DNA from: a virus
Length of the DNA: 59,472 nucleotides
Virus record (IMG/VR): IMGVR_UViG_3300034072_001798
Span: 1-59,472 of that record
Strand: one strand, 5' to 3'
Within the stretch, counting starts at the first letter, position 1, and every line of letters starts with the position of its first letter. Positions 15,870 to 51,886 of this stretch are shown in pieces. The translations under genes were made by a program, and so were the position numbers. Below the pieces are notes generated by a model, which searched no databases, was not told the origin of the DNA, and was given only the letters and a program-made list of their open reading frames with translations.

Positions 15870-17612
15870 TTACGCTGGGAAAGTAGCTCCTGTTGGTAAA
15901 ATGTTAAAATCTAAGTAAATGAATTCTGCAGTTTTAGTAGGTTGAAGATAAATTTGACCAACCATTTGGTTTCTATCAATTACATCTGCAGGATTATTTG
16001 AATCATCCATAATTACTTTAAAAGCAAACAAACCTTGACGTTGTTGTACTGTTTCTAAGTAAGGATTTACAGCTGCTAAAAATGCATTTCTAGTAGCAAT
16101 AGTATTTTGTTCGAATACTAAATTTTGAGCTACTTCTGAAATAAAATTCTTAAGAGCAATTAATAATCTACGAACATTTACACGATCAAGAGCTGATGCT
16201 TTTGTTTGTAATGTTTTCTGACCGTATACTACAACTCCGTTTGCTGGGAATGTTGCAATTGGATTAACTTTATTAGAATATAAAGTATCGCGTTGTGTTT
16301 GAGTTAATTTAAGTTCTGCTTTAACTACTTGAGATAATCCACCTCTGTTAATACCAGCAGGAGCAAACCAAGGTTCAGATACTGTATCATTAAAAGCATA
16401 AACACCTGGAATCATAGTTGATGCTGGAACCCATACTAATTGACCTAAATCTGGGTCAATTGTTTGAACCCATGGCCAATATGAGGCTGCATATGAAGTA
16501 TTTCTTTGATTTGCTTGAACAGATACTGTGTTTACACTTGAGCTATAAGGTACTAAATCCATTACAAAAATATTATCACCTCTGTTTTGAGTATTATTAA
16601 TAACATTGGTGATAACAGAATTATAATTAGCATCAGAATTATATAAACCAGGAATTGCTAATACATTAAATTGGTAAGCATCTTGGTTAGACATTAAAGC
16701 TACTGAGGATGTATAATTGTTTGCTACTAATCCTTGAGTATTTGTACCATTAATATTTTGATAAAAATTAGCACTTCCAGTAATAGTACCTACAGCAGAT
16801 CCAAATGATCCACTTGGGTTAGATGCAGGAATAAAAGGAGTATATGCTGCTTTTGGATTACCATTATTATCGAAATAATTAGGTGTTAAAAAGTAAGGAT
16901 TAATACTAGATACATAAACATATCGTGAATTATTTCTGTATGTACCATAAGAAACCATTTGATTGTTAGTAGTATCTAATTCTTCATAAGTATCACCAAT
17001 TACTCTAGAAAGGAAGTTTGGAGCTGTAGGGTCTAAAGATAAACCAGTCCAAGTTTCTAATACAATTGGATTAGCTGTATTATCATCTCCTCTTCTAATG
17101 TATAAATCAAACGTACCAGAAGATGTATTTGGATTTGCAATTTGGAATCTGATGTTATTTATTGAACCACTTGCTAAAGATCCACTAGCATCAAATGTAC
17201 TTGTACTATTCATTATAGTACCTTCAGAAAATGTGGTTAAAGTAAATGCACTACCACTAGCAACTGCACCGGCAGTACTACCTGAAATGAAAGATGAAGT
17301 TGCTGGGGAATATGATCCACTAGCAACTCTAGTTACAAGTAAAGTTTCGCCACCATTAACGAAGAAATTATATGCTGCAATAGAAGTAAAGAAACTATAT
17401 GTGTTTCCACTACCGGTTCCGTTAGAAACTATTAAAGTAGATCCAAATTTGTTTGTAAAATCACTATATGATGTAACAATTTGGGGCCATTCTACAGGAC
17501 CTAATACTGTAGGGCCTATAATTGCGGCGCTGTTTCTAATAGGTCCTTGTGAAACGAATGAGTTATCATTTTCTCTTGCAAGTACACCTGGTGATATTAA
17601 TGCTTCTGCCAT
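15870..17612 (-). CDS. gp18: Contractile tail sheath protein, T4 gp18-like
   Basis: A 580-residue sheath subunit that polymerises round the tube and contracts during injection. It begins MAEALISPGVLARENDNSF and continues with AAIIGPTVLGPVEWP, the typical sheath N-terminus (SPGV followed by a GP-rich hydrophobic strand). The C-terminal 150 residues carry the conserved sheath core: NGVVVYGQKTLQTKASALD, then RVNVRRLLIALKNFI, and AVNPYLETVQQRQGLFAF. Variable Ser/Thr-rich insertion domains lie between. Length is close to T4 gp18 (659). It is the first gene of the tail cluster after the glycosyltransferases. Confidence 0.95.
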   Translation of the reverse strand: MAEALISPGVLARENDNSFVSQGPIRNSAAIIGPTVLGPVEWPQIVTSYSDFTNKFGSTLIVSNGTGSGNTYSFFTSIAAYNFFVNGGETLLVTRVASGSYSPATSSFISGSTAGAVASGSAFTLTTFSEGTIMNSTSTFDASGSLASGSINNIRFQIANPNTSSGTFDLYIRRGDDNTANPIVLETWTGLSLDPTAPNFLSRVIGDTYEELDTTNNQMVSYGTYRNNSRYVYVSSINPYFLTPNYFDNNGNPKAAYTPFIPASNPSGSFGSAVGTITGSANFYQNINGTNTQGLVANNYTSSVALMSNQDAYQFNVLAIPGLYNSDANYNSVITNVINNTQNRGDNIFVMDLVPYSSSVNTVSVQANQRNTSYAASYWPWVQTIDPDLGQLVWVPASTMIPGVYAFNDTVSEPWFAPAGINRGGLSQVVKAELKLTQTQRDTLYSNKVNPIATFPANGVVVYGQKTLQTKASALDRVNVRRLLIALKNFISEVAQNLVFEQNTIATRNAFLAAVNPYLETVQQRQGLFAFKVIMDDSNNPADVIDRNQMVGQIYLQPTKTAEFIYLDFNILPTGATFPA

Positions 17613-17632
17613 TTTATGAGTTATTTTGTTTT

Positions 17633-17644
17633 GTTATAAATATG
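17633..17644 (-). promoter_or_regulatory. Late-motif copy before tail sheath gene
   Basis: Coding strand CATATTTATAAC, followed by an A-rich stretch, 20 bases before the sheath ATG. It is one of the best matches to the late consensus. Confidence 0.55.
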
Positions 17645-17661
17645 TTAAAGTTTTTAAAAAA

Positions 17662-17907
17662 TTACTTGTTTGTAACTTTACCTGTTTTTAAGTTTAAAAC
17701 TCCTTCACCATATTTTTCTTGTATTTCTTTGCCAAATTTAACAAAACTTTCTTCTAAAATATATAACTCTTGAATTACTTTATTTTTTTCTTGATTTAAT
17801 AATTGTAATTCATACTCTAAAGTACCAAGTTGATGTTTTATTTTTTCTCGTTGATTATTTAGATTATTTATTAATAATAACTCTTCAGGTGTTAAAAACT
17901 TATCCAT
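17662..17907 (-). CDS. Small coiled-coil protein
   Basis: An 81-residue protein made largely of one amphipathic helix: LTPEELLLINNLNNQREKI continues with heptads of Leu, Gln and Glu to about residue 60, ending with GEGVLNLKTGKVTNK. I recall similar short proteins in Bacteroidota-infecting or marine T4-like phages, always unnamed. It lies between the last glycosyltransferase and the sheath gene. A late-like sequence (AAATATTTATT) abuts its ATG. Function is unknown; a tail assembly factor is possible. Confidence 0.7.
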   Translation of the reverse strand: MDKFLTPEELLLINNLNNQREKIKHQLGTLEYELQLLNQEKNKVIQELYILEESFVKFGKEIQEKYGEGVLNLKTGKVTNK

Positions 17908-17927
17908 AATAAATATTTAATTTAATT

Positions 17928-19124
17928 TTAAAAATTTAAAATTTTATTTAAAGAATCAAACACTTTTTCAGGTTTAATTGATTTAGTACATTCAAAATGT
18001 CTTGATGTATTTTTATGGCTAGGACACCATTCCCAATCCCCAGGATTTAACCATTCTTTATTAAAACATCCTGTACAAATATTGGTATCATAATTAAATA
18101 TACGTTCACAATCTGTAAATTCACTATAAGGTAAACTAAATCCAGAGATTAAAATTACAGGAGTGTTAAGAGACCAAGCTAACCATGATAATCCACTTCC
18201 AACACCTATAAAAGCATCAGCATGATTTATATCTACCATTCTATCTTCAATAGTATAATTTCCTGTTTTATCAATTACATTTTTTAATGTTCCCCCTAAT
18301 TTAGAATCATGCCATTTATCTCCTAAACGTTCTTGAGTAATCATTACTACTTTATAACCTTTTTCATTTAAATAATCAATAACAGATTGCCACCCACCAG
18401 GATAGTTCCAATATTTAGCATGTGCCGAAGCATGAGGAGCTATGACAACATATTTACCTTCGATTTGTTTTGCTTTATTTGGAATATTAATTTTAGGTTT
18501 TATTTCAGTATAAGATAAACCTAATACTGAGGTTGATGTTTCCCCTAAAGGATGTTGTTTAAAATCTATTGGTATTTTTGTTTTAACAACTTCTTTATTA
18601 TCATAAAACCATCCAATATTATACATTGCATATAATTTTGGGACTTCAGTACCGGGGGTAACAAATTCTAGTTCAGGATATTCTTTTTCAAACCACTCAT
18701 TGTGAAAAGTAGAACAAATTACATGACATTTATGTTTTTTTCTAAATTCATCAATATATGGAAACCATGCTAATGTATCACCAATAGCTGAGGATTCTAA
18801 ATGGATATAGATTCTTTTATCTTTAGCATCGAATTTATGTTCAAATACTAATTCATTGTTCTCTAGATCATAAACTTCTATTTTCCAATCAATAAAATAT
18901 TCAATACCTGGTTTGGTCCACATATTATTAGAAATTTCTGATTCGTATATCAGATGATTTTTTTGTTGGTCAAAGAATTTTACTAAGTATTTTTTTGAAT
19001 CAGAACCTAATATTTCTAAAAATGCTCCATTTAAAAAATGAACATTAAAAGTATTACTAGTTTTTTTATAAGGTAAATTAAGTTGAGAGATGTTATTATA
19101 CTCCTTGATTAAAACTTCTTTCAT
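17928..19124 (-). CDS. Glycosyltransferase resembling autotransporter O-heptosyltransferases (TibC/Aah type)
   Basis: A 398-residue protein. An N-terminal beta-rich region (residues 1-125; FLNGAFLEILGSD, IDWKIEVYDLENN) precedes a GT-B fold of the GT9/heptosyltransferase type: ESSAIGDTLAWFPYIDEFR, then VVIAPHASAHAKYWNYPGG, and DAFIGVGSGLSWLAWSLN. The C-terminus has a cysteine cluster (CTGCFN, WEWCPSH, FECTKS), which fits the metal-binding module of the bacterial autotransporter heptosyltransferase family that O-glycosylates Ser/Thr-rich repeats. It overlaps the preceding GT4 gene by 29 bases and is the third glycosyltransferase downstream of the Thr/Ser-rich collagen-like fibre, a plausible substrate. 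The family call is good; sugar and target are inferred. Confidence 0.8.
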   Translation of the reverse strand: MKEVLIKEYNNISQLNLPYKKTSNTFNVHFLNGAFLEILGSDSKKYLVKFFDQQKNHLIYESEISNNMWTKPGIEYFIDWKIEVYDLENNELVFEHKFDAKDKRIYIHLESSAIGDTLAWFPYIDEFRKKHKCHVICSTFHNEWFEKEYPELEFVTPGTEVPKLYAMYNIGWFYDNKEVVKTKIPIDFKQHPLGETSTSVLGLSYTEIKPKINIPNKAKQIEGKYVVIAPHASAHAKYWNYPGGWQSVIDYLNEKGYKVVMITQERLGDKWHDSKLGGTLKNVIDKTGNYTIEDRMVDINHADAFIGVGSGLSWLAWSLNTPVILISGFSLPYSEFTDCERIFNYDTNICTGCFNKEWLNPGDWEWCPSHKNTSRHFECTKSIKPEKVFDSLNKILNF

Positions 19125-20055
19125 ATATTTTTATTAATTCTTTTGAACGATTAAACCATGATAATTCTTGAGATGTATTAAAAACTTTTTCTCTATATGA
19201 TTCCCAATTAGACATAATATCTTTTAAACCTTTATCCATTTCAAATACATCTCTAGGAGCTCTCCAAGCACCATGAAAATCTGTATTTAGTTCCCAATCA
19301 GCAATAATTGGTAAACCAGCTGCAGCTGCTTCAACCATTGTTAAATTAGGATGGCCTGCTTCTAACATTGTTGGGTGAATAAAGATATCATGTTGATGAT
19401 AAAGATTTAATAATTCATTATTATGAGTATCGAATACTAAATTTAATTTAGGATAATTTAACATCCATAAATGTGAATTAAAAAAACTTTTATTAGCAGA
19501 AGGACCAGCTATAGTAATTTCTAAATTATTTAACATAGCTAACCCTAAACCGTATGTAAAACCTTTTCTATCATAGGATTGATTTCCTGCTAATCCATTA
19601 TTAGCTATCATTAATAGTTTTGGTTTTATTGGTTTTGGTTTATCAACAGGATAAAAATCATCAGTATTTACACCATGAGAAAAATATATACATTTAGGGT
19701 GATCAAAATAATCAACTAAAAAACGGGCAGGCATTAAAGCTATAATAGAACCTTCAATTGCTTTTAGATTTTCTTTATAAACATGAGATTCTTTACCATA
19801 ATGATAAGCATGGTGATCATGAATTTGATATATATAAGGAATACCTTTTTTAGCTAATTGAATAGCTAAATTTGCTACATGACAGTGTACAATATCATAT
19901 TCTCCTGGGTGGATATGTCCTGACATTTTAATATCAACTTGATGATCTAATTTGGTAAGATTTTGAGTAAATTCCCAAACAATTTTTTCAATAGCTCCCC
20001 ACGATGGAGGGGGAATAGGAATACCACAACCAGGATCTATTTGGCAAATTTTCAT
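19096..20055 (-). CDS. GT4-family glycosyltransferase
   Basis: A 319-residue GT-B enzyme. The N-terminus MKICQIDPGCGIPIPPPSWG, followed by GAIEKIVWEFT, is typical of GT4 enzymes that bind the acceptor through a Gly-rich loop. YDIVHCHVANLA and ALMPARFLVDYF follow. The donor-binding half has LLMIANNGLAGN and the retaining E-x7-E signature in EAGHPNLTMVEAAAAGLPII. It overlaps the upstream 885-residue enzyme by one base (TAATG) and the downstream enzyme by 29 bases, so all three are translationally coupled. It probably extends or starts a glycan on the fibre; the sugar cannot be predicted. Confidence 0.88.
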   Translation of the reverse strand: MKICQIDPGCGIPIPPPSWGAIEKIVWEFTQNLTKLDHQVDIKMSGHIHPGEYDIVHCHVANLAIQLAKKGIPYIYQIHDHHAYHYGKESHVYKENLKAIEGSIIALMPARFLVDYFDHPKCIYFSHGVNTDDFYPVDKPKPIKPKLLMIANNGLAGNQSYDRKGFTYGLGLAMLNNLEITIAGPSANKSFFNSHLWMLNYPKLNLVFDTHNNELLNLYHQHDIFIHPTMLEAGHPNLTMVEAAAAGLPIIADWELNTDFHGAWRAPRDVFEMDKGLKDIMSNWESYREKVFNTSQELSWFNRSKELIKIYERSFNQGV

Positions 20056-22712
20056 TATTCTGTAAATATTAAGGGATTATCTGTTTTACCATCTTTATTG
20101 GATTGTTCTACTATACTAAATCCTGGGAGATGTTTGGTGTAAATTTTTTCTGCTGTACCTACTCTTAATCTAGCTACATTACATATCCATAAATCAATAG
20201 CATCCCAGGGTAATGTTTCTAGCATTACCTTGATTTTTCTAATTTTAACATTATTAATTAAATACGATTGAGCTGGGATAAAAGGAGTTACATCTGTATA
20301 AATGTCTTCTATTTTAGGGCCATTTAAATTTCTATCCTGCCATGGATTACCAAATCCTATAATATCCATATCAGTTTGATATGATAATTTATTAAATCTA
20401 ATCAAAGATTCATATAATTCTTGATAATCACTGTCTATTACAACATCACCTTCTACAATTAATACAAAATCATATTTAGTATTATCTTCAGCACATAAAG
20501 CATTTTTATGAGCTAAATAGCACCCATAATGTCCAGGAGCTAATTTATAGTAGCCTGGTTTATCTTGAACATCTTGTGGGCGAGAACATGTTTCTTTTGG
20601 AGGGAGTTCTTTCCAGATTTCATTAATACGTTGTTCGTATACTATATCTGTTTTTTCACAAAAATCCTTAATGTTTTCTATTGATTTAATTTCTTTAGAA
20701 TTAGAATCAGGTTCAGTAACTAAATGCATTAATTTTATTTTAGGAATATAATGTTTTACTTCTAATTTTCCATTAAATTCTAAATTAGTTACTTGAATTG
20801 TAATAACTTTTAAAGTTTTATGATAATTACCTATGGTAAATTCTACTTCCATTCCTTCTTCATATCGAAAAACTTTGTAATAATCTGTTTTACCCTCTAC
20901 ATTTAATTCATCAAAAAATATTTCATTTTTATCTTTATCGCGTATTACAACTCGAATAAATCTTGATTCTTTACTATTAGAAATTCTAATATAAGGAGCA
21001 AATGAGTTTGGAATATTAGTTGGTAATACTGTGTAATATTCTACTTGGGAAAAATCAGAATGATCAAATGTTTCTAAACTTTTTTGATCAAAAATTTCAA
21101 TATCTTCAAAATATATATAATCAGTACTTCGTTTAAAAATATGATACCACATATTTTCTAAACCATTACTTTCACTTCCTAATTGAAAACGAAGTTGTTC
21201 ATAATCTTCAGCATTATAAATTTGATGAATATGATCAAAAAAGAAATCAGAATGAATTGCACAAAAATAAGTATGTAAAGCATCACCTTCGGAAGCTTTA
21301 TATTTACCAAAATATGCTTTTTTATTATCTAATATTTTAGAAATTTCATCTATATGATGAGATGATTGAATTGTATAATCAAAATTAAGAAAAAATAATT
21401 TTTTATATCCTAAACTTTTTGCTAAAGAAGCACCATTTACATAATTTGAATAAACACTAGGACCATGATATATATCATTATTATTTCCTCTTAAATTAAT
21501 ATAAACTTTATGATCAGGATGATCTGCCCAATAATTACTATAATAGGTATGTTTTGTAAGAATATTATTGTTATCTACAACAACATAATCTGCTTTTGCT
21601 TCAATAGAAAATGGAACAGGAATATGTGATGTAACTAAAACTTTATTTCCTCTAGCTTGAATTGAATCTATAGTTTTTAATGTGGTTTCAATTACAGCAT
21701 CACTTATTGGAAAAGTAGATAAGATAAATATTTCTTCATCTGAATTTGATTCTTTAATACCTAATTTTTTAGCAATTTTGTCATAATTAGTTTTAAAATC
21801 ATCAAATTTTAAATAATCAATAGTAGGGAATTTATTAAAATAATCTAAATAAACAGGAAGGTTATATATTAATGTAGGAATTTGATATGAAATTGCTTCA
21901 CGAATAACTAAAGGCATTGTTTCTTTATCGTTTTCATGACCTCTGGAGGTAAATAAAAATAAATCCATTGCCTGGTAGAACTTATCTACATCTGTGCGTT
22001 CATTCCACCATGTTAAATTTGAGGGTTGATCTTTGGCTAATGGTTCCCAATACCATTTAAAATTATCTGCTCTATTTCCTAAACTATGAAATTCTACATC
22101 AGGAAATTGTCTAGCATATTCAAAAAATTCTGCTTGATTTTTACGAGAAGTATATAATCCTACATGTAAAACATGTTTTTTAGCGGGATCTAATTGTAGA
22201 TTACGCAGTGCCTCTTCACGGTCAGGGCGTTCAATATATTCAATAGGATATTCAACTAATACGCTTGGAACATTAATATCTTGATACTGATTAATTTGCC
22301 ATTGAGATACAAACATAAATTTATCTGGGAAGAATTTTTTATTGTTTGTATCAAAAGATGAATCATGAGATGTTTCTACAATTTTATAATTTCTTTCCGT
22401 ATTATAAATTTGTTTAGCAATATTTTCATCCATAAAAAACTCAGGAATTTCTTCTAAATGAATAATATCCGGTTTAACATGATGAATAATATCAATTAAT
22501 TCTTGTTTATCTTCTTTAAGAGTAAAAAATTTATCAGAATCAACTAAATTAACTATTTTATTTTTAGTTATTACTAAAACGCCTCCAGTACAATCTACCC
22601 ATTCTACAAGATAAATCTCGTAAGTATTTCTAAGTAATTCTATCTTCTTGGTTAAATATTGTGGGAGTCCGCCTGTTGATAAATGTGGGGCAATAAATAA
22701 CAATTTTTGCAT
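20055..22712 (-). CDS. Multidomain glycosyltransferase: GT4-like N-terminus, middle GT-like region, GT25-like C-terminus
   Basis: An 885-residue protein with at least three modules. Residues 1 to about 320 are GT-B/GT4-like: IAPHLSTGGLPQYL, HVGLYTSRKNQAEFFEYAR, LFLFTSRGHEND, MPLVIREAISYQIPTLIY. Residues about 325-520 look like a second GT-A-type region (EIFILSTFPISDAVIETTLK, KKLFFLNFDYTIQ). A beta-rich linker near 570-660 follows. The last 220 residues have the GT25 pattern: APGHYGCYLAHKNAL, then FVLIVEGDVVIDSDY, with DIIGFGNPW and IPAQSYLINN. GT25 includes LPS galactosyltransferases and animal procollagen galactosyltransferases. It lies 53 bases after the collagen-like fibre gene. The GT4 and GT25 parts are clear; the middle domain is tentative. 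Confidence 0.82.
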   Translation of the reverse strand: MQKLLFIAPHLSTGGLPQYLTKKIELLRNTYEIYLVEWVDCTGGVLVITKNKIVNLVDSDKFFTLKEDKQELIDIIHHVKPDIIHLEEIPEFFMDENIAKQIYNTERNYKIVETSHDSSFDTNNKKFFPDKFMFVSQWQINQYQDINVPSVLVEYPIEYIERPDREEALRNLQLDPAKKHVLHVGLYTSRKNQAEFFEYARQFPDVEFHSLGNRADNFKWYWEPLAKDQPSNLTWWNERTDVDKFYQAMDLFLFTSRGHENDKETMPLVIREAISYQIPTLIYNLPVYLDYFNKFPTIDYLKFDDFKTNYDKIAKKLGIKESNSDEEIFILSTFPISDAVIETTLKTIDSIQARGNKVLVTSHIPVPFSIEAKADYVVVDNNNILTKHTYYSNYWADHPDHKVYINLRGNNNDIYHGPSVYSNYVNGASLAKSLGYKKLFFLNFDYTIQSSHHIDEISKILDNKKAYFGKYKASEGDALHTYFCAIHSDFFFDHIHQIYNAEDYEQLRFQLGSESNGLENMWYHIFKRSTDYIYFEDIEIFDQKSLETFDHSDFSQVEYYTVLPTNIPNSFAPYIRISNSKESRFIRVVIRDKDKNEIFFDELNVEGKTDYYKVFRYEEGMEVEFTIGNYHKTLKVITIQVTNLEFNGKLEVKHYIPKIKLMHLVTEPDSNSKEIKSIENIKDFCEKTDIVYEQRINEIWKELPPKETCSRPQDVQDKPGYYKLAPGHYGCYLAHKNALCAEDNTKYDFVLIVEGDVVIDSDYQELYESLIRFNKLSYQTDMDIIGFGNPWQDRNLNGPKIEDIYTDVTPFIPAQSYLINNVKIRKIKVMLETLPWDAIDLWICNVARLRVGTAEKIYTKHLPGFSIVEQSNKDGKTDNPLIFTE

Positions 22713-22765
22713 AACAGTCTATTTCCCATAAATATACGTAAAATTATTTAAAGTACCAAGTTGTA

Positions 22766-25700
22766 TTATCCGTTAGTAAAATAAGTTGTATCAGGTCTGA
22801 AGTTTATTGTATAGTAGGCTCCATTTTGTCTGATTACGTTTCCTACTCCTCTTATAATAGAACCTGCTGCTGTTGGTACGGTTGCACTAACATTACCCGC
22901 AGTTGTTCCTACATAAAGTGGATCACCAATTGTTGCTACACCATCTATTAAGTTAGTAGTATATATACCATCAATTAATACTGAGATTTCGTTTCCAACT
23001 CCAGCAACTGTTCTTAATACTACCCCTAATATAAATTCAGTTGTAGAAAGTGCATCAGCATCTGTTCTAAACCATTGACCTGAGGCAGCCTGGTAATGTA
23101 CTAATTGACCAACTGTTAATGCTTCTCCGGAGGTTTGGCTATGAAGTATTGTTCCTTGAACATAAACTGCAGCTTGATTTGGATCTAATATAGATGTATG
23201 TCCTGGATAAAGTTTAGCGGTAATTGTAGTACCTGAAAGAGCTGTATCACCTGCCCATAAATAATTTTCAGCATCAGACCATAAGACATTTTCTCCAGAA
23301 AATGATACACTACCATTTACATCTAATGTTTGTGTTGGGCCTGTAGTATTAACACCTAATCTAGTATTTGTAATATCAGCATATAAGAATGATACACTTT
23401 GTACTGTTGTTGTACTTGTAGTTCTTACTAAATAATCTGGTTGATTGGTAAATACACCACCACTAATACCTGAGGTACCGTTGATTGATTGACCACTTGT
23501 TCCCGCTACACCACTTGTACCATTAGTTCCGTTTGCTCCTGATGTTCCATTAGAACCTGATGAACCTGAAGAACCTGAAAGCGCACTTACACCTGAATTA
23601 CCTTTGTTTCCTGAAACACCATTTGTACCTGAAGAACCAGTTGTACCTGAAGTTCCTGATGCTCCTGAGTTACCGTTGTTTCCTGAGTTTCCTGAACTAC
23701 CATTTGAACCACTTGTACCTGAGTTACCTGAGTTACCTGAAACTCCGTTGTTTCCTGAGTTACCGTTTGAACCATTAGTTCCGCTTGAACCTGAGCTACG
23801 GCTTAATCCTGAAGTACCTGCGTTTCCTGAGTTACCAGAGTTACCTGAAGTACCATTAGAACCTGATGAACCTGAAGTTCCTGATGAACCTGAAGTCCGA
23901 CTTAAGCCAGAATTACCTGCGTTTCCTGAGTTACCTGAAGAACCTGTTGTTCCGGATGAACCTGAAGTTCCTGATGAACCTGAACTACGGCTTAATCCTG
24001 AAGTACCTGCGTTTCCTGAGTTACCAGAGTTACCTGAAGTACCATTAGAACCTGATGAACCTGAAGTTCCTGATGAACCTGAAGTCCGACTTAAACCAGA
24101 ATTACCTGCATTTCCTGAGTTACCTGAAGAACCTGTTGTTCCGCTTGAACCTGAGGTTCCTGATGAACCTGAGCTGCGGCTTAAACCAGAGTTACCTGCG
24201 TTACCTGAGTTACCGTTTGAACCTGTTGTTCCGCTTGAACCTGATGTTCCTGATGAACCTGAAGTCCGACTTAAACCAGAGTTACCTGCGTTACCTGAGT
24301 TACCTGAAGAACCTGTTGTTCCGCTTGAACCTGAGGTTGCACTTAAACCAGAAGTACCTGAGTTACCTGAGTTGCCAGAGTTACCGTTTGAACCTGTTGT
24401 TCCGCTTGAACCTGAGCTGCGGCTTAATCCTGAAGTACCTGCGTTTCCTGAGTTACCGTTTGAACCATTAGTTCCGCTTGAACCCGATGTTCCTGAAGTC
24501 TGACTTAAGCCAGAATTACCTGCGTTTCCTGAGTTACCATTGGAACCATTGGTTCCACTTGAACCTGAAGTTGCACTTAGACCAGAAGTACCTGCGTTAC
24601 CTGAGTTACCTGCGTTACCTGAAGTACCATTAGATCCTGTAGTTCCGCTTGAACCTGAGCTGCGGCTTAATCCTGAAGTACCTGCATTTCCTGAAGTACC
24701 ATTATTTCCGGAGGTACCATTTGAACCATTAGTTCCGCTTGAACCTGAAGTCCGACTTAATCCTGAAGTACCCGCGTTTCCTGAGTTACCATTGGAACCA
24801 TTGGTTCCACTTGAACCTGAGGTTGCACTTAAACCAGAGTTACCTGCGTTACCTGAGTTACCGTTTGAACCTGTTGTTCCGGATGAACCTGAGCTGCGGC
24901 TTAATCCTGAAGTACCTGCGTTTCCTGAAGTACCATTATTTCCGGAGGTACCATTTGAACCATTAGTTCCGCTTGAACCTGAAGTCCGACTTAATCCTGA
25001 AGTACCCGCGTTTCCTGAGTTACCTGAGGTACCGTTTGAACCTGTAGTTCCGCTTGTACCTGATAATCCTGAGTTGCCATTGTTTCCATTATTTCCAGAA
25101 GTACCATTTGAACCTGTAGTTCCGTTTGTACCTGAATTACCTGAATTACCTGAGGTTCCGTTATTTCCAGAAGTACCATTTGAACCTGTAGTTCCTGATG
25201 AACCTGAGGTACGACTTAAACCGCTTGTTCCTGTGTTACCTGAGGTACCTGCAGTACCAGCTGAACCTGATGTACCTGAGTTAGCACTAGCACCACTTGT
25301 TCCAGCATTACCTGAGGTACCTGATGTACCAGCTGAACCTGATGTACCAGAAGTTGCACTAGCACCACTTGTTCCGGCATTTCCTGAATTACCTGAAGTA
25401 CCGTTTGTACCAGTTGAACCTGAAGAACCTGAAGTTCTGCTTAATCCTGAATTACTAGTATCACCAGATGAGCCATTAGTACCAGATGAACCACTTGTAC
25501 CTGAGGTTTGACTTGGACCACTAGTACCAGCAACACCTGATGTACCTACTGAACCTGTTGTACCTGATGAACCACTTGTGTTTGATAATCCGCTTGTTCC
25601 AGCATTACCTGAGTTTCCTGAAGTACCGTTTGAACCAGTTGTACCTGAAGTTCCTGAGTTAGCACTAACACCACTCGTACCTGCATTACCTGTAGTACCT

Positions 25701-28700
25701 GCTGTACCTGTTGATCCTGAAGAACCAGAGGTAGCACTTAATCCACTTGTTCCGGCATTGCCCGAATTACCATTAGTACCTGTTGAACCTGAAGAACCAG
25801 ATGTTCTACTTAAACCAGAAGTACCATCATTACCTGAGGTACCAACTGTACCTGAAGAACCGGATGAGCCTGAACTACGGCTTAATCCGCTTGTTCCAGC
25901 ATTACCACTTGTTCCATTTGAACCAGTAGTTCCTGAAGAACCACTTGTATTTGATGAACCACTAGTTCCAGCAGCTCCTGTAGTACCTGCTGTACCCGTT
26001 GAACCGGAAGTTCCTGAGTTAGCACTAACACCACTTGTACCGGCATTTCCACTTGTTCCATTTGAACCTGTTGTACCTGATGATCCTGATGTATTACTTA
26101 ATCCACTAGTACCTGCTACTCCTGCTGAACCGTTAGTACCAGTTGAACCTGAAGAACCAGAAGTATTTGAAGCACCTGAAGTACCTGCATTTCCTGAAGT
26201 ACCGTTTGTACCTGTAGATCCTGAAGAGCCACTTGTACCAGATGAACCTGAAGTTCTACTTGAACCAGAAGTACCATCGTTTCCTGAAGTACCGTTTGTA
26301 CCAGCTGAACCGCTTGAACCTGAAGTTCTACTTAATCCTGAAGTACCGTCGTTACCTGAGGTACCTATTGAACCCGAAGATCCTGATGAACCTGAACTAC
26401 GACTTAATCCACTTGTTCCAACGTTACCTGAGGTACCGTTTGTACCAGTTGAACCACTTGTTCCTGAAGTAGCGCTAGCACCTGATGCACCTGCAGCACC
26501 TGAAGAACCTGAAGTACCAGTTGAACCTGAAGAACCACTTGTTCCTGAAGTAGCACTTGCTCCTGAAGCGCCTGCAGCTCCTGAAGAACCTGAAGTTCCT
26601 GTTGAACCTGAAGAACCGCTTGTATTTGATAATCCACTAGTTCCAGCTACACCTGAAGTACCATTTGTACCAGTAGATCCTGATGAACCTGAAGTATTAC
26701 TTGCACCTGATGTTCCAGCATTACCACTAACTCCTACTGAACCTGATGTACCTGTAGAACCACTTGTTCCACTTGTTGCGCTAGCACCACTATTTCCAGC
26801 ATTACCTGATGAACCATTTGAACCTGAACTTCCTGAAGTGCCTGATAATTGACTTAATCCGTTTGTTCCAGCAGCACCTGTTGAACCATTTGAACCTGAA
26901 CTTCCTGATGAACCAGAAACATTACTAATACCTGAAGTACCAGCCGCTCCTGATGAACCATTTGAACCGCTTGTACCTGCAGATCCTGATGTATTTGAAT
27001 TACCTGAAGTACCTGCATCCCCTGTTGAACCATTAGTTCCTGAGGTACCACTTGAACCTGAGCTTCTACTTAATCCACTTGTTCCTAAATCTCCATCTCC
27101 GGAAGTACCGTTTGTACCTGATGTACCTGAAGATCCTGAACTGCGACTTAAACCTGAAGTTCCTATATTACCTGAGGTACCAACTGAACCTGAAGATCCA
27201 CTTGTTCCTGAAATTTTACTTTGACCTGAATCTCCAGCTTCACCTGTTGAACCGTTTGTACCTGAAGAACCACTTGTGCCTGATGTATTACTTAATCCTG
27301 AAGTACCAGCATTACCTGTTGAACCATTAGTACCGCTTGTTCCGCTTGAACCTGAACTGCGACTTAAACCTGAAGTTCCTAAATCTCCATCTCCGGAAGT
27401 ACCATTTGTACCACTTGTTCCACTAGAACCTGAAGTTCTACTTAAACCACTTGTACCTATATTTCCTGAAGTACCAACTGAACCTGAAGACCCAGATGTA
27501 CCACTTGTATTACTTAATCCTGATTCACCAGCAACACCTGAAGAACCTGTAGTTCCTGTTGAACCTGAAGAACCAGATGAACCTGAAGTTCTGCTTAAAC
27601 CTGAGTTACCGTCAACTCCTGTTGAACCGTTTGTTCCAGAAGAACCACTTGAACCAGAAGTTGTACTTAATCCACTTGTTCCAGCATTACCTGAGGTACC
27701 AACTGAACCACTTGTTCCTGAAGAACCTGAAGTAGCACTTTCACCTGAAGTTCCAGCGTCTCCTGTTGTACCGTTTGTACCAGAAGTACCTGAAGAACCA
27801 CTTGTATTAGATAATCCACTTGTTCCAGCTTCACCTGAAGAACCGTTTGAACCAGATGTGCCTGAGGAACCACTTGTGTTTGAAACACCTGAAGTTCCGG
27901 CATCTCCTGTAGAACCTACAGTTCCTGAAGAACCGCTTGTACCTGAAGTAGCACTTTCACCTGAAGTTCCAGCGTCTCCTGTTGTACCGTTTGTACCAGT
28001 TGAACCACTCGTACCTGAAGTAGCACTTTCACCTGAAGTTCCAGAGTCTCCTGTTGTACCGTTTGTACCAGAAGTACCTGAAGAACCAGACGTTTCACTA
28101 TTTCCTGAAGTACCAGCATTACCACTTGTACCATTAGATCCAGTAGTTCCTGAGGAGCCACTTATGTTTGATAATCCGCTTGTTCCAGCATCTCCTGAAG
28201 AACCATTTGTACCTGTTGAACCAGAAGTACCAGATGTGTTACTTAAACCACTTGTTCCAGCATTACCACTAGAACCATTAGATCCTGAAGTGCCTGAGGA
28301 ACCAGACGTTTCACTATTTCCTGAAGTACCCGAAGTGCCTGTTGAACCTGATTCTCCACTTGTTCCTGAAGTACCAGATGAACCTGATTCTCCACTTGTT
28401 CCTGAAGTACCTGAGGTTCCATTTTCACCAGAAGTACCTGATGTGCCTGTTGAACCACTAGTACTACTTACACCTGAAGTGCCTGTTGAACCATTATCAC
28501 CACTTGTTCCACTTGTACCTGTTGTTCCGGATTCACCTGAAATACCTGAAGTACCTGAGGTACCATCTTCACCACTTGTTCCTGAAGAACCAGTTGTTCC
28601 TGATTCACCTGAAATACCTGAAGTACCGAAAGTACCATTTTGACCTGAAGTACCTGCTGAACCAGTTGAACCAGAATTTCCTGAGATACCTGAAGTACCT

Positions 28701-30964
28701 GTTGAGCCATTCTCACCTGAGGTACCTGAAGTACCTGTTGAACCATTATCACCACTAGTACCATTTGTACCTGTTGAACCACTAGTACCACTTAAACCTG
28801 AAATACCAGATGTACCTTCTTCTCCTGAAGAACCATTTGAACCTGATGTACCTGAAGTACCAGAGATAGCACTTTCACCTGAAGTTCCAGCTTCACCTGA
28901 AGTACCAAATGTACCTGATGTTCCGCTTGAACCAGATGTTTCACTATTTCCTGAAGTTCCAGCTTCACCTGAAGTACCAGATGAACCTGAAGTACCGGAT
29001 AAACCTGAAGTTCCAGCTTCACCTGAAGTGCCTGAGTCGCCACTTGTTCCTGAAGAACCTGATGTGCTTGATCCACCAGAAGTACCAGCAGTACCAGTTG
29101 AACCACTTTGTCCTGAAATACCTGAAGTACCATTTGAACCACTTTCACCTGAAATACCTGATGAACCTGTAGAACCAGACTCACCTGAAATTCCTGAGGT
29201 ACCTGTAGTGCCATCTTCACCAGAGGTACCACTTGTTCCTGTGGAACCAGAATTACCTGAAATTCCTGAAGTACCTATAGTACCGTTAGCTCCTGAACTA
29301 CCTGAGGTGCCAGTTGAACCACTTACACCTGAGATACCTGAAGAACCGATAGTACCGTCTTCACCAGATGTACCAGAAGTTCCTGTTGAACCGGATTCAC
29401 TACTTATTCCTGAGGTACCTGTAGTACCATTTTCACCTGAAGTTCCATTACTTCCTGTAGTGCCACTAGTACCTGCTAAACCTGAAGTTCCTAAGGTGCC
29501 ATTTTCACCTGAGGTTCCATTAGAACCAGTTGTACCAGATGTACCACTTACACCTGATGTACCATTTATTCCATTTTCACCTGATATACCATTTGAACCA
29601 TTTGTACCTGAAGTTCCTGATTCGCCTGAAATTCCTGAAGAACCGTTTTCTCCACTTATTCCATTAGAACCAGTTGTACCAGATGTACCACTTATACCTG
29701 ATGTACCGTCTTCACCTGAAGTACCAGATGTACCATTTTCGCCTGAGGTGCCAGCTAAACCTGAACTACCTGAAGTACCGTCTTCACCTGAAGTTCCGGA
29801 TGTTCCTGAAGTTCCTGAAGTTCCACTTGTTCCTGAACCTGGAAGATCACCAGGTCCTGTTCTACCTGAACTACCTATTGTACCACTTGTGCCACTTGTT
29901 CCTGAAGTACCAGATTCACCTGAGGTACTATTTAAACCTGAAGTACCTGAAGTTCCGTCTTCACCACTAGTACCTGAAGTACCAGATTCACCACTAGTAC
30001 CAGATAATCCTGAAGTACCGGATGTGCCATCTTCACCACTTGTTCCTGAAGTACCAGATTCACCTGAGGTACCATCTAAACCAGACGTACCGGATGTACC
30101 ATTTTCACCAGAAGTACCATTTGTTCCTGTTTGACCTGAAGTTCCTGAAGAACCAGTTGAACCTGAAGTACCATTTATTCCTGAAGTACCTGAAGTACCT
30201 GTTAATCCACTTGTTCCGGCTAAACCTGAAGTACCTGAAGTACCGTCTTCGCCTGAGGTGCCATTTGTACCTATTTCACCACTAGTACCAGATAACCCTG
30301 AAGTACCAGATGTGCCATCTTCACCACTTGTTCCCGATGTACCATTTTCTCCTGAAGTACCGGATGTACCATTTTCTCCTGAAGTACCGGATGTACCCTT
30401 TTCTCCTGAAGTACCGGATGTACCATTTTCGCCTGAAGTGCCAGCATCACCTGAAGTGCCAGAAGTACCATCTATTCCTGAAGTACCGGATGTACCAGTT
30501 TGACCTGAAGAACCAGTTAAACCTGAAGTACCAGAAGTACCACTTGCACCACTTGTTCCTGACTGTCCTGTGGTTCCTGAAGAACCAGCAAAACCACTTG
30601 TACCTGAAGTTGTATTTACATATCCTACAACACCTGTGGTTGGGTTATAAGTTACAACATAATTTATATCTTGAACAGGAAGTGTTTGAAGTATAATTGG
30701 TTGAGATGATCCTGAAATTACTAAAGAACCAGTAATAACAGCTGAACCTGAAAAAGGAAATCCTACTCCTGAACCAGAAACATATACTGTAACACCTGTA
30801 GTATCAAAAGTAGTTAGTTCAACTGAACCTGAAAAATTTAGGAAAGGTACACTAGCACTAACTAATGTACCATTTTGATAAATGTCAATTGTACCACTAC
30901 CATCGGTAGAATTTACTTGGTACACACCAACGGGAACTTGATCTAAAAATCTTACTTGAGCCAT
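22766..30964 (-). CDS. Giant collagen-like (Gly-X-Y) fibre protein, 2732 residues
   Basis: Residues 1-115 are a non-repetitive beta-rich head ([32 protein letters not shown]). About 2380 residues of Gly-X-Y triplets follow, dominated by GTS, GSS, GEN, GED, GNA and GSN, with almost no proline. The last 225 residues form a distinct C-terminal domain ([35 protein letters not shown]), similar to phage fibre tip or decoration modules. The N-terminal third has acidic or Asn triplets and the C-terminal part gains LSR-type triplets. From mid-protein on, one Gly per roughly 24 residues is replaced. It is probably a trimeric neck, whisker or tail fibre: it follows the gp15-like gene and precedes three glycosyltransferases. 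Thr/Ser in X and Y are candidate O-glycosylation sites. Confidence 0.92.
23461..30614 (-). repeat. Coding repeat array for Gly-X-Y triplets
   Basis: Roughly 7.1 kb of 9-bp units coding Gly-X-Y, with higher-order units near 72 bp in the part coding the C-terminal half. The opposite strand is open in several long frames because the repeat lacks their stop codons; those frames code Pro/Glu/Val-rich repeats and are shadows. Such an array is prone to slippage and to misassembly, so its exact length may vary between isolates. Confidence 0.9.
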
Positions 30965-30980
30965 TCTTCAGGGTTTGTCT

Positions 30981-30992
30981 TATATAAATATT
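30981..30992 (-). promoter_or_regulatory. Late-motif copy before collagen-like fibre gene
   Basis: Coding strand AATATTTATATA, 16 bases upstream of the fibre ATG, within the 37-base gap after the gp15-like gene. Confidence 0.5.
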
Positions 30993-31001
30993 GGAAAAAA
31001 A

Positions 31002-31955
31002 TTATAGTGCATTAATCCTTTTTTTTGTTTGTAAAGAATTTGTTGGATCTGTGACTGTAATAGTTCCATCGCTGTTAACAGGGCTATTATATAAGGCATC
31101 CAAAGAAGATGCTTCAACTGAAAATATAATTTTTGTTGTTTCTGTATATTTTTTAATAGAATTAATATCTTTTTGTAAAATTTCGGGAACAATATATCCA
31201 TTTAATCTAATATTAAAAGTACTTCTAACTATTCTTTCATCATCTTGGCTTAATTCAGTTTGAAAACCAAAGGAATCAATCATAGCTCTAAATTTATATC
31301 TTTGTGGGTCACCCCAATAGGCATCAGAAGCATATTCAATTGCTTCGACTATTTTGTTGAGTTGTTCTACATAATATGTAAATACAGCACATGTATATGA
31401 TATTGTAATGTAATCCGGAATAACAGTTGCATAATATTGTTTTTCTGGGATTCTATTAGTTAAAACTTTAAAATTATCATATGAATTTCTAGCATCATAT
31501 TTTTTTGTAGAAACACTATAATTATGAGGGTTATTAGCGTCTAATTTATTACCTACAGATCTAACTTTTTCTAAAGACTCACGTTTAAACATAATTAAAG
31601 GAGCCATAATTTTAGATTTTTGATCTCTGTAGTATCCATCTTTTTGAAATGATTTCCATTTTTCAGGAGAACCATAAATTATAGGAACCGGTAAACGAGC
31701 ACCATTTTGTATAACGGAAGGTTGAATAACATTTTCAAAATAATAAAATACAGCTTCATCAATATCTTTAATACCAATACTAAAAGGTTTTGTATTATCA
31801 TTACGAAATGATGTCTGTAATGCACGGTTAACACCAGGAACATTAGAGTCGGCGTAGTTTGGATTTCCCGCTGGTATATACGTTGATACATGCTGTTCAA
31901 CGCTAATTTCACGTTGAGTCTTAGGTGTTGGTTTATTTAATCTTCCATTACTCAT
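31002..31955 (-). CDS. gp15: Tail sheath stabiliser/terminator, T4 gp15-like
   Basis: A 317-residue protein. The layout follows T4 gp15: an N-terminal region leading into VPIIYGSPEKWKSFQ, then PLIMFKRESLEKVRS, then ITISYTCAVFTYYVEQLNKI and IDSFGFQTEL. A C-terminal strand NIRLNGYIVPE ends the core, as in gp15 (VNGWMYPP). T4 gp15 has 272 residues. gp15 caps the sheath and tube and joins them to the neck. It overlaps the gp14-like gene by one base and follows gp13/gp14-like genes in T4 order. Moderate to good confidence, helped by gene order. Confidence 0.75.
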   Translation of the reverse strand: MSNGRLNKPTPKTQREISVEQHVSTYIPAGNPNYADSNVPGVNRALQTSFRNDNTKPFSIGIKDIDEAVFYYFENVIQPSVIQNGARLPVPIIYGSPEKWKSFQKDGYYRDQKSKIMAPLIMFKRESLEKVRSVGNKLDANNPHNYSVSTKKYDARNSYDNFKVLTNRIPEKQYYATVIPDYITISYTCAVFTYYVEQLNKIVEAIEYASDAYWGDPQRYKFRAMIDSFGFQTELSQDDERIVRSTFNIRLNGYIVPEILQKDINSIKKYTETTKIIFSVEASSLDALYNSPVNSDGTITVTDPTNSLQTKKRINAL

Positions 31956-50518: not shown

Positions 50519-51886
50519 TTAAAATAAATCTCCTGTTCCTTGTTCGTAAAGATACAAATCATTTTTATGTTCTCCAAGTATAGATTCACAAACATAAATT
50601 GCTTGTGCTCCTGATACTGTAATACCTCGTGCTGATAAAGCATCACCTACAAAGTGTACATTTGCATAATCAGCTAATGCTAAATTACTATAATCTACTT
50701 TAACTTCAGGTGATAGATATTTTACTTCAGGAATATAAATACCCCAATCGTCTTGTAATGTTGGGAATACTTTTTTCATGTCTTGAATAAAATCCATAAC
50801 ATATTTAAAGTAACCTTCCATAGCAGGTTCAACAACATGAGCTAATGTATCTAAACTAATTTGAGTTGCTGTTACACCATTACCTTCAGATGTAGTTGAT
50901 GGTTGACGAGATGGACTATAATATAAACCAGTACCATTTGCTTGTACTTTATTTACTACATCACGTGACCATTTAAACGGATCTTCAATACCATTAATTT
51001 CCATTAAGATACCGAAATTAGTCATATTATTTCTATATGCTTCGTCTTTCTTAGCATGTCCATTATATGAATGATCACCATATGTTTCCTCTACAGCAAC
51101 ATAAGCAGCATTATTATTTGTACAGAATGAACGTAATGAAACTCCTTCATCTTCAAATTTTCTATATAACTTAAAGTCATATGAAATATCGATTAGTTTT
51201 TGAAAGTGTTTTTGTGGTGCTTCAAATCGAACTCCAATTTGTACTGATTTGGGTTCATCTGGGAGTTCGTATTGGTGGGCTAGCTCTTGAGCAAAATCAA
51301 TGCCTGATTTACCTACTGCAAATATAAGTTCATCATATATTAAAGATTTAATTTTTCCTAGTTTAACAGGTAAAGAAGAATAACCTAATGAATTTTTATT
51401 AAAATTAACATCAGTTACTTTAGTTTCCCAAATAAACTTTACACCTTTTTCAACTAAATAATCATACCAATTTTTAGCAATTTCAGATAGATAATCTGTA
51501 CCTACGTGCCATACTGGGAATAAGCGTAAACCAAAATAGGGTTTGATAAATTCAGGTTCTGCTTCAGGATTTGAACATTGTACTTCTTCTGGTTTAGGGT
51601 GGAAACGTTTGAAATTGGTAATGACTTGATCCATCAATTCCATTGCTTTTTCCTCACCACAATATTTTGATAGTTGACCTCCAATTGCTGTGTGATAAGT
51701 CAATTTACCATCAGACCAACCTCCAGCACCTAAGAAACCTGTCATTACTTCTTCAGGTTTACGTTGGTATGGATCTTTACCCATATCAATTACAGTGATC
51801 ATTTCACCAGGATAACCGTTATCAACAAGTTTTGTTGCTGCATTTACACCTGCTACTCCTGCTCCTACAATTACTATTTTTTTCAT
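50519..51886 (-). CDS. FAD-dependent oxidoreductase
   Basis: A 455-residue flavoprotein. The N-terminal dinucleotide-binding fold has KIVIVGAGVAGVNAATKLVD. The motif GFLGAGGWSDGKLTYH and the second half (VQIGVRFEAPQKHF, YSPSRQPSTTSEGNGVTA) resemble the uncharacterised FAD-dependent dehydrogenase group (COG2509 type). The C-terminal FAD site is VHFVGDALSARGITVSGAQA. No membrane segment is visible. It is an unusual auxiliary gene for a phage and lies in the accessory cluster with the cupin and kinase. Substrate is unknown. The upstream gap holds a terminator and a late-motif variant. Confidence 0.85.
   Translation of the reverse strand: MKKIVIVGAGVAGVNAATKLVDNGYPGEMITVIDMGKDPYQRKPEEVMTGFLGAGGWSDGKLTYHTAIGGQLSKYCGEEKAMELMDQVITNFKRFHPKPEEVQCSNPEAEPEFIKPYFGLRLFPVWHVGTDYLSEIAKNWYDYLVEKGVKFIWETKVTDVNFNKNSLGYSSLPVKLGKIKSLIYDELIFAVGKSGIDFAQELAHQYELPDEPKSVQIGVRFEAPQKHFQKLIDISYDFKLYRKFEDEGVSLRSFCTNNNAAYVAVEETYGDHSYNGHAKKDEAYRNNMTNFGILMEINGIEDPFKWSRDVVNKVQANGTGLYYSPSRQPSTTSEGNGVTATQISLDTLAHVVEPAMEGYFKYVMDFIQDMKKVFPTLQDDWGIYIPEVKYLSPEVKVDYSNLALADYANVHFVGDALSARGITVSGAQAIYVCESILGEHKNDLYLYEQGTGDLF

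Follow-up and report, generated by a model that had tools for sequence, protein, structure and literature searches.

The virus record IMGVR_UViG_3300034072_001798, analysed here over its full length of 59,472 bases (the window), is a fragment of a T4-like contractile phage in which a gene for a giant collagen-like fibre lies next to three genes for glycosyltransferases. Family scans against Pfam and PHROG, covering 29 of the 56 window proteins, recognised a gp23-type capsid protein, T4-type portal and terminase proteins, a sheath and a tube. By sheath similarity, Flavobacterium phage immuto (52.6%) is the nearest cultured relative, followed by Microcystis phage Mel-JY01 (49%). The three glycosyltransferase open reading frames (ORFs), which we call GT-A, GT-B and P0004, follow the fibre gene by 53 bases on the same strand and overlap by 1 base (GT-A/GT-B) and 29 bases (GT-B/P0004). 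A first-pass annotation made from the sequence alone had described a giant, almost proline-free Thr/Ser fibre, three coupled genes behind it and a third enzyme resembling autotransporter O-heptosyltransferases, and our analysis confirmed all three descriptions. By its sequence, P0004 is a member of the BAHT enzyme family, and our comparisons of phage and bacterial loci lend good support to a repeated association of its branch with Gly-X-Y proteins rich in Ser and Thr.

The fibre (2732 residues; positions 22766-30964, minus strand) matched the Pfam family Collagen (PF01391) with an E-value of 1.3e-257 and consists of an N-terminal part of about 110 residues, a Gly-X-Y region (residues 111-2501) and a C-terminal domain of about 230 residues. 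Ser and Thr make up 70.7% of the X and Y positions, with Ser at 60% of the Y and Thr at 45% of the X positions; 3 prolines occur in the 2391 residues of the Gly-X-Y region. Among its 656 triplets, Lys was not seen at X and fills 0.3% of the Y positions. The long Gly-X-Y repeat typical of the collagen triple helix is present (PF01391), and the Gly at every third place is not unbroken: between residues 111 and 2501, successive glycines are exactly 3 residues apart in 656 cases and 6 apart in 65, corresponding to 65 in-phase replacements, most commonly by Arg (23), Ala (16) or Asn (14). The modal spacing of these replacements is 8 triplets, i.e. 24 residues, and they lie in motifs such as GLSRTSG. 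This spacing was modal in 28 of the 36 BAHT-linked fibres examined (one represented by a single gap, one by a tie) versus 2 of 21 other fibres (one represented by a single gap, one sharing its contig with a BAHT-linked fibre). The resulting super-repeat of 24 residues, in which one in-phase Gly is exchanged (GLSRTSG, GLSNTSG, GLSATSG), extends over window positions 23600-28300 and was also seen in the fibres of contigs L436, L439, L440 and L166. Since one Gly is lost about every 24 residues, a standard triple helix would be broken into short segments. The periodic loss limits the interpretation as a collagen, and likewise the idea that sugar may replace proline-based stability. A collagen triple helix rises by about 0.29 nm per residue; if extended as such a helix, the fibre would be near 0.7 micrometre long. 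The C-terminal domain (22766-23461, minus strand) has a 33% identical match in a fibre of phage immuto that is devoid of a Gly-X-Y tract; a scan with this domain returned 7 loci, and its structure model was of too low quality for a fold search (mean predicted local distance difference test score, pLDDT, of 48).

The enzyme most informative about the cassette is P0004 (398 residues; 17928-19124, minus strand). It reached 327.6 bits on TIGR04414, the model for autotransporter strand-loop-strand O-heptosyltransferases (cut-off 200), and TibC was its sole clear relative by sequence in the PDB (E = 2.6e-58). According to the available excerpts of the TibC study (PMC4358343), TibC employs a catalytic Asp110, the sugar-binding residues Thr226, Lys230, Arg286 and Trp305 and a four-Cys iron finger. 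In the alignment, Asp116, Ser233, Lys237 and Trp314 of P0004 correspond to TibC Asp110, Thr226, Lys230 and Trp305, a counterpart of Arg286 is present, and Cys350, Cys353, Cys367 and Cys379 correspond to the iron-finger Cys 339, 342, 358 and 370. The Asp, Lys, Trp and four Cys residues are invariant across 15 aligned sequences (P0004 and 14 phage homologues) while the Arg varies, and Gly309 of P0004 stands where TibC has the stereo-selecting Pro300 and AAH has Ser294. P0004 also matches models of lipopolysaccharide (LPS) heptosyltransferases weakly. Such matches, together with the occurrence of GT4 and GT25 types, to which the first two enzymes were related, in LPS synthesis, would fit enzymes that alter the host surface (LPS or capsule), e.g. 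to block superinfection, with the fibre merely using the same cargo slot. We consider this explanation unlikely, as P0004 scores at most 43.9 bits on the LPS models compared to 327.6 bits on the protein O-heptosyltransferase model. The scan of 29 of the 56 window proteins found no autotransporter family, so no partner autotransporter of the AIDA type, and the neighbour of P0004 is the collagen-like fibre instead. The cassette would work like an autotransporter O-heptosylation system and is not classed under it.

The two preceding enzymes are less readily assigned. GT-A (885 residues; 20055-22712, minus strand) appears to be composed of an N-terminal GT4 domain (PF00534, 36.1 bits, above cut-off), a glycosyltransferase-like middle part and a C-terminal GT25-like domain of 240 residues (20058-20777, minus strand), which scored 17.7 bits on PF01755 and thus stays below the cut-off of 24. 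GT-B (319 residues; 19096-20055, minus strand) is of the GT4 type, with PHROG assigning it as a glycosyltransferase and its best match to the Pfam GT4 families (1.2e-05) below their cut-offs. Of the enzyme families predicted by the first-pass annotation, profile and structure comparisons thus recovered GT4 for GT-A and BAHT for P0004, while GT25 and the GT4 assignment of GT-B remained under the Pfam thresholds. The suggestion that GT-A ends in a GT25-like domain fared similarly. PF01755 matches 12 of 13 homologues at E<=0.1, and human COLGALT1 was the top Foldseek match of the GT-A model (E = 3.1e-12; mean pLDDT 81); the domain is, however, missing in part of the related cassettes. Residues 1-321 of the model resemble GT4-type enzymes (best Z 18.6), and residues 322-864 align with COLGALT1 at Z 16.1 with a root-mean-square deviation of 16.9 over 371 residues, a value that limits the likeness to a domain-by-domain one at most. 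A fold predicted to be common to GT-A and COLGALT1 need not mean the same function. Profile searches against PDB sequences with the GT25-like domain returned no convincing relatives, nor did a search with the whole of GT-A, and two marks of a COLGALT-type system were not found, as PF01755 stays below its gathering cut-off and the fibre offers almost no Lys acceptors. The GT25 assignment of the GT-A C-terminus is therefore weak. A distant fold match of GT-A was also obtained with T4 AGT (Z 15.7). DNA glucosyltransferases are a well-known feature of T4-like phages, and the three enzymes might modify phage DNA bases; given that BAHT is a protein-modifying family and that the genes lie in the late structural region, we regard this as highly improbable.

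To see how the cassette is arranged elsewhere, relatives of P0004 were searched in virus sequences, and 80 of the 274 stretches found were fetched and examined. The usual order is fibre, GT-A, GT-B, BAHT, (81-residue protein gene), sheath, in some cases with insertions. A Gly-X-Y gene is visible in 40 of the 80 loci, 35 times Ser/Thr-rich and 5 times Pro/Gln-rich. Among the remaining 40 loci, 38 stop before GT-A or extend at most 0.7 kb upstream of it; these include L017 and L046, which reach 1.3 and 2.0 kb upstream of GT-B and in which no GT-A was recognised. The five loci with BAHT beside a Ser/Thr-poor collagen (L040, L041, L045, L049, L056) were considered as exceptions that would speak against the pairing with Ser/Thr-rich fibres; three were followed upstream (L040, of which L041 is a near-copy, L045 and L056), and all three longer stretches revealed Ser/Thr-rich fibres of 650-1013 triplets. 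One sublineage (L054, L059-L064, L071) encodes the fibre on the other strand downstream of BAHT and has the cassette after the capsid gene wherever the sequence reaches that end, so that the pairing survives rearrangement. The cultured phage Mel-JY01 encodes a Gly-Thr-Ser fibre 1.7 kb from a 1227-residue fusion protein that begins as a GT4 enzyme and ends as a BAHT; this fusion (L082 4747-8430) carries the record annotation 'methyltransferase FkbM'. A huge phage genome (L170; LR756501, 735 kb) holds GT-A and BAHT homologues with an adjacent Ser/Thr Gly-X-Y ORF, and contig L439 (5612-18616) encodes a 4335-residue Ser/Thr-rich Gly-X-Y fibre followed by a row of Pro/Gln-rich collagen-like genes.

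Nearly proline-free Ser/Thr-rich Gly-X-Y tracts recur across many phage contigs, which allowed a comparison with Pro-rich tracts. The first set was found by a Gly-Thr-Ser DNA pattern (80 contigs fetched, 49 tested), the second by a Gly-Pro-Y pattern (80 fetched, 55 with a real tract, 34 tested). Tested contigs were hand-picked, mostly longer than about 15-17 kb with a confirmed tract, and some long Ser/Thr ones were omitted (e.g. L176, L198, L227). BAHT exceeded its cut-off in 20 of 49 Ser/Thr-rich contigs versus 1 of 34 Pro-rich ones (Fisher p = 6e-05). When contigs were limited to 20-90 kb and BAHT was taken at E<=1e-3, the counts were 14/38 versus 0/25. In 13 of the 20 BAHT contigs, a Ser/Thr-rich Gly-X-Y ORF lies inside the region fetched around BAHT. 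As the two sets may come from different host groups and their contigs are not independent of each other, this apparent link between BAHT and Ser/Thr-rich tracts is an association and not a proof.

In the window, the cassette occupies a variable slot. On its right-hand side, an 81-residue protein gene with no assigned function (17662-17907, minus strand), found in the same place in many relatives, separates it from the tail sheath gene (15870-17612, minus strand; PF04984/PF17482, PHROG 23), which forms the border; the left-hand border is a 317-residue protein gene (31002-31955, minus strand), relatives having the order g410-g173-g317-slot-sheath. Minus-strand terminator-like sites were not found within 17000-31500, and promoter- and terminator-like sites occurred at chance level. 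Outside the slot, an FAD (flavin adenine dinucleotide)-type oxidoreductase gene (PHROG dehydrogenase; 50519-51886) adjoins the packaging genes.

Among relatives collected via the sheath (80 contigs, 50 tested), the slot between the 317-residue protein gene and the sheath differs in content and is in many cases empty. It also takes other cargo, such as a sulfotransferase gene lying before the sheath in L107 (6830-7672), a relative in which BAHT gave no match; this variability would fit the host-surface explanation. BAHT (E<=1e-3) was found in 6 of 7 of these contigs with the Ser/Thr Gly-X-Y pattern versus 8 of 43 without it (p = 0.001); L137 counts among the seven by a single pattern match, and L120 is the one without BAHT. 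Of the eight BAHT contigs lacking the pattern, L089 does have a Ser/Thr Gly-X-Y tract, which escaped the pattern, L106 and L109 have Pro-rich tracts and an oxygenase homologue, and in L105, L113, L126 and L138 BAHT lies at most 1.3 kb from the contig end. These data also bear on the possibility that the target of the cassette is a different virion protein, such as the sheath, the tube or a second fibre, and that the Gly-X-Y fibre is a mere neighbour. The position between fibre and sheath in many relatives and the additional Pro/Gln-rich collagen-like proteins of some cassettes would agree with it; on the other hand, 35 of the 43 sheath-anchored contigs without the pattern are also without BAHT, the rearranged lineage keeps BAHT with the fibre and no sheath in view, and the bacterial pairs described below have no sheath nearby. 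Taken together, we consider it very unlikely that another virion protein is the target. Phage immuto, with its related fibre C-terminus, has neither Gly-X-Y nor a BAHT match.

The pairing extends to bacteria. For the cellular BAHTs closest to the phage ones, 80 of 387 candidate stretches were fetched, and in 12 of these a Ser/Thr-rich Gly-X-Y tract lies within 7 kb. The 12 include 11 of the first 12 ranked by similarity to P0004, two of the 11 being phage-like contigs, whereas none of 240 block-shuffled bacterial loci gave a Gly-X-Y tract under the same, comparatively loose tract test. Of these two, L441 comes from a Winogradskyella bin and is a phage contig that encodes sheath and tube; the same cassette occurs in L442, from a Flavobacteriales bin, and both bins give hints at hosts. 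BAHT lies beside a Ser/Thr-rich Gly-X-Y protein gene in Methylobacter luteus (L443) and in L444, L445, L447-L452 and L476; in L446 its neighbour is a Ser/Gly-rich ORF that did not pass the tract test. By eye, the L443 pair is located among housekeeping genes on a 4.5-Mb scaffold, and several of the cellular Gly-X-Y proteins have a signal peptide or lipobox. Small, apparently exported proteins of this kind beside BAHT outside phages are encoded at L443 8935-9798, L448 3694-4125, L449 11240-11668 and L450 8572-9027. In Methylobacter luteus, the collagen-like gene adjoins BAHT on the same strand; due to an inverted repeat followed by T's between the two genes, also seen by eye, we do not claim a single transcript. 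Pairs in bacteria without surrounding phage genes, and the split by fibre composition, speak against host-surface modification as the function of the phage enzymes. Conservation of the gene neighbourhood, on which the first-pass annotation had staked its proposal, was borne out: the pairing recurs in related phages, where it outlasts a rearrangement, as well as in more distant phages and, outside phages, in some bacteria.

A tree of 90 BAHTs, obtained after removal of near-copies at 90% identity (194 to 121) and of 31 short-flank rows (18 virus, 13 cell), was built with a quick method; it has several long branches, and TibC is not among its rows. The 31 cellular BAHTs without a Gly-X-Y neighbour form one side of a branch with an SH-aLRT support of 100, and the tract label changes once among the cellular rows (shuffled mean 26). 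Of the ten virus rows without a tract within 7 kb, three have a Ser/Thr-rich fibre farther along the contig and four more the Gly-Thr-Ser pattern elsewhere on it. At tract-less cellular loci, all six large neighbour ORFs tested contain an AIDA stalk domain, three of them together with an autotransporter beta-domain; five of these loci belong to the tract-less branch, and the sixth, L472, is outside the tree. In both branches, BAHT accordingly lies beside a Ser/Thr-rich repetitive protein, which is the substrate in the known branch; no other observation supports the fibre as substrate of the phage enzymes as strongly.

Thus, we suggest that the cassette glycosylates the phage's own fibre, to which we assign a probability of roughly 0.7. 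From the relationships above, we infer the reaction, donor, sites, enzyme order and benefit as follows. In the infected cell, P0004 would act like TibC, taking heptose (or a similar sugar) from an ADP-sugar made by the host and attaching it to the Gly-X-Y tract, with serines and perhaps threonines as acceptors. In the cases studied, TibC and AAH modify Ser and leave Thr unmodified (PMC4358343, in the excerpts available), which makes the Ser-rich Y position the most likely site. BAHT is likely the first enzyme, because some bacterial loci pair it with a Gly-X-Y protein and have no recognised GT-A or GT-B homologues; GT-A and GT-B might afterwards extend or cap its sugar. The outcome would be a very long, sugar-coated virion fibre, which may gain bulk, solubility, protection or host contact and possibly also stability. 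The original proposal of a phage that glycosylates its own fibre therefore stands as far as it builds on P0004 being coupled to Ser/Thr-rich Gly-X-Y proteins, and is weak in its GT25 part, with a score under the cut-off, patchy presence and scarce Lys.

Several observations weigh against glycosylation of the fibre. Of 40 virus records with a BAHT, mostly fragments, one has an ADP-heptose synthase domain over its cut-off (4/40 at E<=1e-3), compared to 9 of 13 genomes with cellular loci (11/13 at E<=1e-3), and no donor-synthesis genes were found in the Winogradskyella bin of L441. The description of the system as self-contained is hence not supported. One BAHT-bearing virus contig holds a heptose adenylyltransferase-type domain above its curated cut-off (L437 6604-7092). 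No BAHT (E<=1e-3) was found in 28 of the 49 Ser/Thr-rich contigs, all of which are fragments or of uncertain completeness. Conversely, 7 of the 20 BAHT contigs have no Ser/Thr-rich fibre in the fetched region; four of them have the fibre at a distance of about 11 to 47 kb and one at the opposite contig end, its place being unlisted for two. In L139, the last of the eight sheath-anchored BAHT contigs lacking the pattern, the slot is complete and contains no Gly-X-Y despite a BAHT-like gene, no tract was found in the 2.7 and 3.4 kb upstream of GT-A in L044 and L057, and virus records L137 and L171 have no tract nearby. Over the whole tree, the tract label requires 9 changes. Shared ancestry, host group and the shared cargo slot could be behind part of the association.

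In extended cassettes, genes for 2-oxoglutarate- and Fe(II)-dependent (2OG-Fe(II)) oxygenases, the superfamily of prolyl 4-hydroxylases, lie beside Pro-rich collagen-like genes (L040 6502-7095 and L056 5824-6417, by PF13640; L106 3047-3670 and L109 3899-4513, by BLAST; L045 4453-5046, by eye). A general link of prolyl hydroxylases to Pro-rich tracts was considered, which proved non-significant overall (PF13640 over cut-off in 6/34 Pro-rich versus 3/49 Ser/Thr-rich contigs, p = 0.15) and is suggestive in the relatives of the window. As a tentative generalisation, which we hold to be somewhat more probably wrong than right, there may be a prokaryotic collagen glycosylation in which a BAHT branch of phages and free-living bacteria O-heptosylates Ser/Thr-rich Gly-X-Y proteins, phage cassettes add GT4, GT25-like and methyltransferase functions, and lineages with Pro-rich collagens add a prolyl-hydroxylase-like oxygenase, paralleling the two collagen modifications of animals.

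If the fibre is indeed glycosylated by the cassette, an enzyme family known from bacterial adhesins extends to a new substrate class, and the added virion coating could affect host contact. A dedicated modifying enzyme would bear on how, or whether, proline-poor, Ser/Thr-rich Gly-X-Y tracts form stable collagen, and would offer a tool for glycosylated recombinant collagen. The bacterial pairs, including that of Methylobacter luteus, and phage Mel-JY01 make the question testable now. Among the papers listed in searches of the open-access literature, judged by titles and the first parts of abstracts, none links such enzymes to Gly-X-Y proteins, and none names Mel-JY01. The closest known systems are TibC and AAH with their autotransporters TibA and AIDA-I. 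As far as the available excerpts of PMC4358343 go, they have in common with the phage cassette the enzyme family, the catalytic Asp, the sugar-binding Lys, Trp and Arg, the iron finger and the position of the enzyme gene beside a repetitive Ser/Thr-rich protein; the partner of the phage enzyme is, however, a Gly-X-Y protein instead of a beta-helical autotransporter, and the phage-type enzyme is accompanied by or fused to other glycosyltransferases. Mimivirus, with L230 and R699, likewise encodes collagen-like proteins and collagen-glycosylating enzymes, but in this giant amoeba virus the sugars are hydroxylysine-linked (PMC9546862, in part), while the phage has a BAHT-family enzyme and a fibre in which Lys is nearly absent. 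Glycans on phage virion proteins are known from mycobacteriophages (Freeman 2023, cited in PMC12619734), where they are placed at the C-termini of capsid and tail tube proteins; the citing passage leaves a collagen-like fibre unmentioned. Phage-encoded Gly-X-Y proteins, in turn, occur in E. coli prophages, but the portion of PMC3368898 at hand describes them as Pro-rich at X, with many charged residues and without detected glycosylation of the recombinant protein. BAHT protein glycosylation and viral collagen modification are thus known as such, and what appears to be new in the phage cassette is the putative substrate class.

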